This document shows positions 10,963 through 12,962 of a DNA stretch of 64,000 nt, in pieces. The DNA comes from Haloarchaeobius amylolyticus (lineage in GTDB: Archaea; Halobacteriota; Halobacteria; Halobacteriales; Natrialbaceae). The first letter of the stretch is position 1; each line of letters opens with the position of its first letter. A program made the translations under genes and the position numbers. The stretch is from positions 1,612,001-1,676,000 of the forward strand of contig NZ_JANHDH010000001.1 of NCBI RefSeq assembly GCF_026616195.1, in the 5' to 3' direction. The notes under the pieces are model-generated. The model was given only the letters and a program-made list of their open reading frames with translations, made no database searches and was not told where the DNA came from.

Positions 10963-11142
10963 TCAGTAGTACGACCCGCGCAACTCCGGCTCCAGAACCA
11001 GCATCATCGCGGCGAGACAGCCCAGCAACACCGCGGCCGTCCAGAGCAGGTACTCCGCGTTCGCCATCACCAGCACCGCCACGAGGCTTCCACCCACGAC
11101 CAGCGCCCCGACGAGGAGCCTGACCAGCGTCGGAAACCGCAT
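10963..11142 (-). CDS. Small two-helix membrane protein, 59 residues
   Basis: The minus strand from 11142 reads MRFPTLVRLLVGALVVGG and ends in RGSYY. Two hydrophobic helices (about 7-26 and 31-50) are separated by NAEYLL. It stops three bases before the next upstream gene's end and so forms a tight pair with 11146-11385. Such short two-helix proteins are frequent in haloarchaea; no function is known. Confidence 0.6.
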   Translation of the reverse strand: MRFPTLVRLLVGALVVGGSLVAVLVMANAEYLLWTAAVLLGCLAAMMLVLEPELRGSYY

Positions 11143-11145
11143 GGC

Positions 11146-11385
11146 TCACTCCTCACAGAGCCGGAGGCAGTCCTCCGGGTCGACGTGGAGGTCCTCGTGG
11201 TCGATGGCCTGCCACTCCCCCGCGACCGACGCACGGACCGTGGTGAAGTCGTTCTCACCGTACCCCCTGGCCAGCTGTGGCCAGCGCTCGCTGGCGCTCT
11301 CGTCGTAGATGCCAAGCAGCTCCTCGAGGTGGTCCATGGCGGTCCCGCTCGATGCACTCCCGTCGGTTCTGACGTCGTAGCTCAC
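11146..11385 (-). CDS. Hypothetical acidic protein, 79 residues
   Basis: The protein starts at a GTG at 11385 (M)SYDVRTDGSA, or possibly at an internal ATG at 11337 giving MDHLEELLGIYDESASERWP. It is acidic, with two Cys in the last residues (EDCLRLCEE). It ends three bases before the small membrane protein gene downstream, so the two are probably cotranscribed. I do not recognise the family. Confidence 0.5.
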   Translation of the reverse strand: MSYDVRTDGSASSGTAMDHLEELLGIYDESASERWPQLARGYGENDFTTVRASVAGEWQAIDHEDLHVDPEDCLRLCEE

Positions 11386-11680
11386 GAGTTCCCAACTCCC
11401 TATCCCGTCAATCGGCCAGAAGTATCATAGCTAATCGTGCGTTACGCGGCCGGTAGAGAACCCGTAATCCAGTGGCGCGAACGGGTATGGTGATGCTACT
11501 GCTGGACGGTGAAAGGTCGGCCCAGGCACCCACCCGGAACTACTCGGGCGACTTCGGGAGGAATGCACCGTCCGGGAATCGAACCAGAGCGAGACGGTCC
11601 TGCTCCCCGCGTCGCAGGCTGCGACTCGCAGGGTCCGATTCCCCAGCGCTACCGCTCCTCACTGTCGTTCGTCGCAGGAA
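11386..11680. other. Spacer holding a decayed 3' copy of the tRNA-Gly end
   Basis: No gene is seen here. A 27-base segment at 11559-11585 repeats, with one mismatch, the 3' end of the tRNA-Gly gene and two flanking bases (the real copy is 11676-11702). The two copies are 117 bases apart in direct orientation. The spacer between them carries another T-arm-like stretch (GGGTCCGATTCCCC near 11630). This looks like a partial tRNA duplication or an old attachment-site scar; no integrase is nearby. Confidence 0.6.
11559..11585 (-). repeat. Duplicated 3' end of tRNA-Gly (direct repeat)
   Basis: The segment AGGAATGCACCGTCCGGGAA continues to 11585 and matches 11676-11702 except at one position. On the minus strand it encodes the T-loop 3' half, the T-stem and the 3' acceptor strand of tRNA-Gly. 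It cannot make a functional tRNA. Confidence 0.75.
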
Positions 11681-11751
11681 TGCACCGTCCGGGAATTGAA
11701 CCCGGGCTATTAGCTTGGGAAGCTAATGTCCTACCACTGGACCAACGGTGC
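11681..11751 (-). tRNA. tRNA-Gly (anticodon CCC)
   Basis: On the minus strand a 71-base cloverleaf can be folded. The acceptor strands GCACCGT and ACGGTGC pair fully, with discriminator A. The D arm contains GGTCCAGTGGTAGGACA. The anticodon arm is TTAGC-TTCCCAA-GCTAA, giving anticodon CCC (reads GGG). The T arm is CCCGG-GTTCAAT-TCCCGG-like. CCA is not encoded. The 5' side abuts a tandem repeat whose first unit includes the first 11 bases of the tRNA. Confidence 0.95.
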
Positions 11752-11992
11752 TCACTCACTACGTTCGTTCGCACCGAGCCCCCACTCACTTCGTTCGTGG
11801 GGACAACGGTGCTCGACCGCTACGTCCGTTCGCACCGCCCCACACGCACATCGTGCGCGGGGACAACGGTGCTCGACCGCCACGTCCGTTCGCACCGCCC
11901 CACACGCACATCGTGCGCGGGGACAACGGTGCTCGACCGCCACGTCCGTTCGCACCGCCCCACACGCACATCGTGCGCGGGGACAACGGTGT
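11741..11992. repeat. Tandem 60-bp repeat (four units plus a partial) containing tRNA-Gly acceptor-stem pieces
   Basis: Units start at 11741, 11801, 11861, 11921 and 11981 (partial) with an exact 60-base period. Units 3 and 4 are identical, unit 2 differs by one base, and unit 1 is diverged and overlaps the tRNA-Gly 5' end. On the minus strand each unit reads GCACCGTTG-TCCC (tRNA 5' end with one base missing), then a GC-rich inverted repeat (CGCAC-ATC-GTGCG), then CGGTGC. Outer arms GCACCG/CGGTGC, middle arms CCCC/GGGG and the inner arms can nest as hairpins at 11771-11812, 11832-11872, 11892-11932 and 11952-11991. The open frames through it exist only because 60 is divisible by 3. Confidence 0.85.
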
Positions 11993-12130
11993 TCCCGTAA
12001 CGTTCTATCTCAACGTTCTGCACGACCGTACTTCAACGTAGCGTTTTCCCGAACCGAATCGACCACCGGCGCGGCCCCGGCTCGGCCGGCCGCGGGTGGA
12101 CGAACGTCCAGGTTCCGACCCCGTCGAGCA

Positions 12131-12140
12131 ACGTATTAAC
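12131..12140 (+). promoter_or_regulatory. TATA-like element of nadE
   Basis: ACGTATTAAC lies 25-34 bases before the ATG at 12165, consistent with a leaderless transcript. Confidence 0.5.
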
Positions 12141-12164
12141 GGGTGCAGATGCAAGACCCGCCTA

Positions 12165-12962
12165 ATGTTGGACCTTCGCTTCTCGGAGGAAGAGCTGGCC
12201 GCCCAGCGCGACCACATCGTCTCGTTCATCCAGGAAACAGTCGACGCAGCGGGTGCCGACGGCGCCGTCCTCGGGCTCTCGGGGGGCGTCGACAGCACGA
12301 CGACGGCCTACCTCGCCGTCGAAGCCCTCGGGAAGGAGAACGTGCGCGGACTGGTGCTGCCGGCGACGGTCTCCAGCGAGGAGAACATGAGCGACGCCGA
12401 GCGAGTGGCGGAGACGCTCGGCATCGAGTACGACACCATCGAGATCGGGCCCATCGTCGACGCGCTGGTCGACGCGATTCCGGGTGCCGAGGGCGACACC
12501 GTGGCCGTGGGCAACGCGCGGGCGCGGGTCCGCGGGGTGGTCAACTACTACGTCGCCAACGAGGAGGGCCGCGTGGTCCTCGGGACCGGGAACAGGGCCG
12601 AGGCGCTGACTGGCTACTTCACGAAGTACGGCGACCAGGCGGTCGACTGCAACCCCATCGGGAACCTCTACAAGCAGCAGGTCCGCCAGCTCGCGGCCTA
12701 CCTCGGCGCACCAGACGACCTCGCGGAGAAGGAGGCGACCGCGGAGCTGTGGGCGGACCAGACCGACGAACAGGAGATGGGCGTCGGCTACGACACGGTC
12801 GACGCGGTCATCGCGCTCCACATCGAGGGCGGGGCGTCGACCACGGCGACGGCGCGCGAGCTCGGCATCGACGAGGCCGACGTCGAGCGCGTGCGGGAGC
12901 TGTACGAGGTGAGCGAGCACAAGCGCAACATGCCGCCCGCACCGTCGGAACTGCGGCTCTGA
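12165..12962 (+). CDS. nadE: NH3-dependent NAD+ synthetase
   Basis: A 265-residue cytosolic enzyme that makes NAD+ from nicotinic acid adenine dinucleotide, ATP and ammonia. The PP-loop ATP-pyrophosphatase motif is LGLSGGVDSTTTAYL (about residues 35-49), and the family blocks VLGTGNRAEALTGYFTKYGDQAVDCNPIGNLYK and ATAELWADQTDE are present. There is no glutaminase domain, so free ammonia is the nitrogen source. The ATG at 12165 fits the TATA-like element and the usual archaeal length of 250-275 residues. The next gene is convergent. Confidence 0.95.
   Translation: MLDLRFSEEELAAQRDHIVSFIQETVDAAGADGAVLGLSGGVDSTTTAYLAVEALGKENVRGLVLPATVSSEENMSDAERVAETLGIEYDTIEIGPIVDALVDAIPGAEGDTVAVGNARARVRGVVNYYVANEEGRVVLGTGNRAEALTGYFTKYGDQAVDCNPIGNLYKQQVRQLAAYLGAPDDLAEKEATAELWADQTDEQEMGVGYDTVDAVIALHIEGGASTTATARELGIDEADVERVRELYEVSEHKRNMPPAPSELRL

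Follow-up and report, generated by a model that had tools for sequence, protein, structure and literature searches.

The repeat array beside the tRNA-Gly(CCC) gene of the window (the whole stretch of 64,000 nucleotides analyzed here, part of a 4.6-Mb haloarchaeal genome, G000) is confirmed to be a real array of hairpins built from the ends of that tRNA, and no local accident. Modules of this kind read, outward from the tRNA gene, as tRNA end (X), loop, inverted copy (X′), loop and X once more; their arms track the adjacent tRNA, their pairing is compensated and strand-specific, and in the DNA sampled they are confined to the flanks of tRNA genes. We tentatively interpret the array as the 5′ representative of a family of tRNA-mirroring hairpins that extends across the class and may have originated by fold-back copying, changed in unit number by slippage and been carried as a folded leader.

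Hairpin array and its glycine tRNA gene

Four units (61, 60, 60 and 60 bp; 11752-11992) immediately precede tRNA-Gly(CCC) on the same strand (Table 1). On the tRNA strand, each is composed of GCACCGTTGTCC, a stem-loop, an inverted copy with a CGGTGC end that corresponds to the 3′ acceptor strand, and a 19-nt linker. The initial annotation had placed four hairpins here, each carrying the tRNA 5′ end with one base missing, and both points held upon re-examination: the hairpins measure 42, 41, 41 and 40 nt (the last 41 nt if position 11992 is counted), and the units read GCACCGTTG-TCC ... CGGTGC, one G fewer than the GCACCGTTGGTCC of the tRNA. Its finer description of the repeat needs minor amendment. 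The period of 60 is recovered by Tandem Repeats Finder (4.1 copies, 93% match, 11743-11991), but the actual spacing is 61, 60 and 60; the two middle units have identical hairpins, whereas the three distal 60-mers differ from one another by 1–2 bases (97–98% identity); and the start GCACC holds in general but not for the most distal 60-mer, which begins with ACACC. The proximal unit is distinct from these three. It alone keeps the form common to relatives, its linker (11752-11770) being of the AC-GA-AC-GTA-GT-GA-GT type, and a near-identical counterpart occupies the same position in two congeneric genomes (G001 and G003).

Table 1 Coordinates of the 5′ array, the tRNA gene and the 3′ module within the window
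Feature	Position	Strand	Remarks
tRNA-Gly(CCC), source of the copied ends	11681..11751	minus	ARAGORN; Rfam RF00005, 72.4 bits
5′ unit 1, tRNA-proximal, 61 bp	11752..11812	minus	hairpin 11771-11812; linker 11752-11770
5′ unit 2, 60 bp	11813..11872	minus	hairpin 11832-11872; linker 11813-11831
5′ unit 3, 60 bp	11873..11932	minus	hairpin 11892-11932; 1 base apart from unit 2
5′ unit 4, distal, 60 bp	11933..11992	minus	hairpin 11952-11992; starts ACACC
Promoter-like box CGCTACGTTGAAGTAC, conserved, 5′ of the entire array	12028..12043	minus	same box in most haloarchaeal loci sampled
3′ module of tRNA-Gly(CCC)	11564-11680	minus	absent from the initial annotation
Trailer hairpin of 3′ module, loop GAACGACAGTGA	11652..11680	minus	
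Inverted T-arm copy of 3′ module (GGGGAATCGGACCC)	11631..11644	minus	
Core hairpin of 3′ module, subfamily TGCGAGTCGCAGCC ... GGACCGTCTC	11586..11630	minus	similar stretches: contigs C3, C6
Direct copy, T-arm + 3′ acceptor (GGTTCGATTCCCGGACGGTGCA)	11564..11585	minus	22 nt, one difference vs tRNA

Array and tRNA together fold far better than shuffled sequence (z −5.5; none of 100 shuffles as good). Searches for a known family or carrier gave no match: in Rfam 15, no family other than tRNA (RF00005) exceeded its gathering score across 11000-12600, and a plasmid collection searched with the array returned nothing. A scan for sigma-70 promoters and terminators, which is ill-suited to archaea, likewise found nothing.

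Units at tRNA-Gly in other haloarchaea

Units of this kind recur beside tRNA-Gly throughout the class. Using a strict pattern for unit plus tRNA-Gly, we found CCGGTG-type units ahead of tRNA-Gly(CCC/TCC) in 81 of 284 genomes, representing 34 of 76 genera of Halobacteria, and CCGTTG-type units in 15 of 292 genomes; a look at tRNA genes of related genomes, which the initial annotation had proposed, thereby revealed the units class-wide. Within a sample of tRNA-Gly(CCC) loci not selected for units, 8 of 30 carried them. Both G001 and G003 bear two units at tRNA-Gly(CCC), next to the same neighboring gene as in the window (nadE by eye), and no units were seen at tRNA-Gly in G005. At tRNA-Gly(TCC), the window's genome has no units, whereas its congeners G001, G003 and G004 do. 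Among the tRNAs examined, 5′ units occur at tRNA-Gly only, according to an all-locus tally in which some isotypes were miscalled with introns allowed and rows at −150 stemmed from empty sequences. An exact search of 14 genomes with the 23-base apical hairpin gave 16 occurrences, 15 of them just before tRNA-Gly, and the placement of copies at unrelated intergenic sites expected of REP/PATE-type elements was therefore not found. Immediately downstream of the sixteenth site are an inverted T-arm and a copy resembling T-arm/acceptor sequence. Copy number varies from 1 to 4, and separate arrays of two to three units, independent of the one described here, precede tRNA-Gly in other genera (L165 in G010, L123 in G064 and L138 in G007).

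The arms follow the tRNA beside which they lie. Both the unit arms and the tRNA read GCACCG in the window's genome and GCGCCG in G001 and G003, and the match extends to GTGCCG and GCGCTG genomes. At the third base, a test over 95 matches found T in X′ in 3 of 4 cases where the tRNA has A, compared to 7 of 90 where it has G (Fisher P = 0.003, a value that, like the permutation results below, overstates certainty because related genomes are not independent). This tracking could stem from repeated new origins and not from concerted change.

Pairing within the units is retained despite wholly different stem sequences, and no relatives emerged that had kept the repeat while losing it. Apical stems are wholly exchanged between genomes yet remain paired, to a degree that none of 5000 permutations of the arms matched (21 loci); a second test on 45 distinct arms likewise gave 0 of 10,000 permutations as good as the true pairing. 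Across 41 distinct ungapped units, preselected for GA/GA at the internal loop, pairing is 94% overall in register compared to at most 49% when the arms are slid by 1–3, and pairs 13-27, 14-26 and 15-25, which appear in A-T, G-C, T-A and C-G forms, are each intact in 41 of 41. Tandem G.A is conserved among the units, within this same GA/GA preselection, and nearly all 5′ hairpins have their apex 22 nt from the start. Furthermore, each of the distinct hairpins compared (85/85) folded more strongly as RNA on the tRNA strand than on the opposite one; since a double-stranded cruciform is strand-neutral, this preference suggests a transcript or the displaced strand of an R-loop. The excess of G.T over A.C (14 vs 4) points in the same direction, although transcription-linked mutation could also be its source.

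The simplest account, also raised in the initial annotation, is a plain and unimportant slipped duplication of the tRNA border. Slippage does account for the tandem expansion: the units are of short period and head to tail, the distal three are clearly slippage copies, and a filled and an empty site in two genomes of one genus (L150/L151) are set apart by a single 53-bp unit, on either side of which lie direct repeats extending across the tRNA start. As a full explanation, however, slippage is very unlikely, because the units have conserved internal structure that such repeats should lack, because slippage yields neither inverted copies nor exchanged-yet-paired stems, and because it leaves unexplained the recurrence at the same tRNA in 34 genera and the modules at the 3′ ends of other tRNAs.

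The position of a promoter-like box bears on whether the units are transcribed. Box CGCTACGTTnAAGT lies 38–57 bp before the tRNA at loci without units and, at most unit-bearing loci, about 38–53 bp ahead of the first unit. Because the box precedes the first unit, the units fall within the likely leader, with the first copy sitting where the tRNA would otherwise start; as judged from this arrangement of sequence, 5′ units are probably located in the pre-tRNA leader and transcribed along with tRNA-Gly. The earlier description of the units as acceptor-stem mimics is supported, and its suggestion that these mimics form part of the tRNA precursor is very probably right given the box ahead of the first unit.

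A decoy role toward RNase P, RNase Z or a synthetase, one of the possibilities named in the initial annotation, is hypothetical, as are roles in processing and insulation. One might then hypothesize that the units are functional RNA, namely selected mimics of the tRNA ends that act within the precursor to tune tRNA maturation or supply via RNase P (5′), RNase Z (3′) or GlyRS. The uniform sense-strand folding (85/85), the compensated stems with conserved tandem G.A, the location between promoter box and tRNA, the restriction of 5′ units to tRNA-Gly among the tRNAs examined and arms that stay in step with the tRNA would all suit such a role. We nevertheless consider it unlikely on balance, as the units are patchy (8 of 30 tRNA-Gly(CCC) loci, with a within-genus difference at L150/L151) and vary in copy number (1–4), while in the 3′ modules the T-loop is broken in 11 of 34 copies and many modules lie past a T-run that may terminate transcription.

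Modules downstream of tRNA genes

The window's tRNA-Gly(CCC) is also followed by a 3′ module (Table 1). In its full form, as delineated by eye, such a module runs from the tRNA 3′ end with its trailer, through a loop, to an inverted trailer, acceptor remnant and T-arm, and continues with a core, after which T-arm and 3′ acceptor are repeated in direct orientation. With matches to neighboring whole tRNAs excluded, at least 22 of the 50 tRNAs of the window's genome are accompanied, no more than 300 bp away, by a copy of their own 3′ end. The acceptor part of 3′ copies matches its own tRNA (median score 24, attained by 0% of other isotypes). Within 300 bp of tRNA genes, direct-inverted-direct triplets reach a density of 32.5 per 100 kb, compared to 0.45 (~70-fold less) in a background of 440 kb of the window's genome away from tRNAs, which is mostly coding and contributed two cases, both coding-like.

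The 3′ copies begin at GGTTC of the T-loop, and their cores are common across genera. Core GAACCAGGGAG...GACCGTGGTTC is present in 45 of 292 genomes, spread over 24 of 77 genera (reversed control, 0), downstream of at least 10 tRNA species including the intron-bearing tRNA-Trp. A looser form of this first 3′ core was found in 18 genomes, all in the window's order, and in none of ~311 genomes of the phylum outside that order; a second 3′ core occurs in Haloferax and Halogeometricum genomes.

Several variants were noted among these modules. In the 11 copies counted above (e.g., at L083, L092, L100, L104 and L106, and at L011 and L024 in the window's genome), the T-loop is changed or missing, in several cases through insertion of a single base (such as TTCAAATCC to TTCACAATCC), as if an intact T-loop within the 3′ copy were disfavored. 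Four tandem 3′ modules follow tRNA-Leu(TAG) at L101 (G129:C1, about 1114175-1114482), a 3′ counterpart of the window's array. Elsewhere in the window's genome, odd tRNA-like genes, whose variable regions are long, carry 3′ modules of the window's subfamily (G000:C3:597472-598996 and C6:885-972), the C3 genes having the look of a cluster on a mobile element. At L091 (G281:C52), 3′-end modules of tRNA-Thr persist where the tRNA body is apparently deleted. A shorter variant, recognized by eye at tRNA-Ala (L013, L014), tRNA-Cys (L070) and tRNA-Pro (L073) of the window's genome, copies only the 3′ acceptor strand after the hairpin, twice in succession at tRNA-Cys.

Partial 3′ tRNA copies downstream of a tRNA are the classic signature of attL/attR scars left by elements integrated at the tRNA 3′ end (PMC8371274), and direct copies of this kind are indeed present. 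That the modules are such scars is nonetheless extremely improbable: no kb-sized element lies between the copies, the tRNA-to-core gap of single modules being just 23–117 nt and filled with hairpins; an inverted T-arm stands ahead of the copy; nearly half of the tRNAs in the window's genome carry a copy; and the 5′ units duplicate the tRNA 5′ end. For annotation, this means that partial tRNA copies near haloarchaeal tRNAs are not necessarily integration scars.

Shared cores also invite the idea of a self-propagating hairpin, in which core GAACCAGGGAG...GACCGTGGTTC would move by T-loop microhomology and have its arms refilled from each new host tRNA. Such movement could account for the same cores at so many tRNA species and genera, for the tandem modules at L101 and for modules at the odd tRNAs of contigs C3 and C6. 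We regard it as rather improbable, given that no enzyme has been identified, that the IMG/VR viral contigs scanned for the 3′ core do not contain it, and that no clear copy was found apart from tRNA sequence.

Origin and relation to known systems

Fold-back (template-switch) copying of tRNA-gene ends is the most likely origin of the modules. Template switching of the type that forms quasi-palindromes gives rise to inverted copies beside the original sequence; we know of no class-wide recurrence of this process at tRNA ends with shared cores. A module would be born when DNA synthesis at the end of a tRNA gene folds back twice, switching template at small stable hairpins and copying the tRNA end first in reverse and then in forward orientation. 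Units would subsequently be gained, lost and homogenized by slippage, which can change their number because X, with the tRNA end included, is directly repeated, and four units would be the outcome here. Those on the 5′ side would be transcribed within the pre-tRNA leader and kept folded; with the leader so held, X′ would pair with the extra X and would not invade the tRNA acceptor stem, and RNase P would then cleave off the leader. The module boundaries, however, are more regular than free template switching would produce, and this regularity, together with the common cores, hints at a recognized or self-propagating core, or at function; a self-propagating core and a selected RNA function are accordingly retained as serious alternatives.

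We also entertain, with more doubt, the possibility that the modules are elements of a new kind, each a structured and transcribed mirror of the ends of the tRNA beside it that is renewed from this tRNA and either serves as an RNA mimic in tRNA maturation or spreads between tRNA genes, taking new arms from each host tRNA. If true, the evolution of the mirror element would be coupled to that of the acceptor stem. In the usual view, tRNA ends are fixed targets recognized by other factors. The hairpins offer a natural experiment in the handling of acceptor-stem mimics by RNase P, RNase Z and synthetases, as well as in acceptor-stem change and template switching at tRNA genes.

Two other readings were set aside. 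A split, permuted or intron-containing tRNA is one, since the neighboring tRNA is complete and no joining of tRNA parts is needed; a K-turn was also considered.

Hairpins that mirror tRNAs are widespread in salt-loving archaea and apparently undescribed. In the open-access literature, we found no element with arms copied from an adjacent tRNA, and prior publication in a subscription journal is possible; the only partial tRNAs or palindromes reported at tRNAs there were provirus-linked partial tRNAs and a Methanopyrus kandleri motif. The single ingredients are already known, as att scars, the M. kandleri palindrome, haloarchaeal palindromic elements and GNA mini-hairpins. Archaeal tyrosine-recombinase elements at tRNAs leave att-site duplications (PMC8371274), which resemble the 3′ modules in placing a direct 3′-end copy downstream of an intact tRNA; here, in contrast, only ~0.1 kb of hairpin DNA separates the copies, an inverted copy lies inside, and 5′ ends are duplicated too. 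In M. kandleri, a palindrome follows about half of the tRNA genes, a shared motif ~10 bp after the tRNA that is said to be species-specific (PMC5217627); the likeness lies in this frequency downstream of tRNA genes, whereas the arms of our modules copy each tRNA's own ends. The PATEs and SMRs of Haloquadratum are small, non-coding, palindromic or inverted-repeat haloarchaeal elements present in many copies (PMC3119063), but these have ends of their own, while the arms of the modules derive from the tRNA next to them and the modules were found at tRNAs only. Finally, the C-GNA-G form of GNA mini-hairpin DNA, such as d(GCGAAGC) (PMC4686876), is recognizable from sequence in many of the loops and linkers here, and it constitutes a physical motif, not a genetic element.
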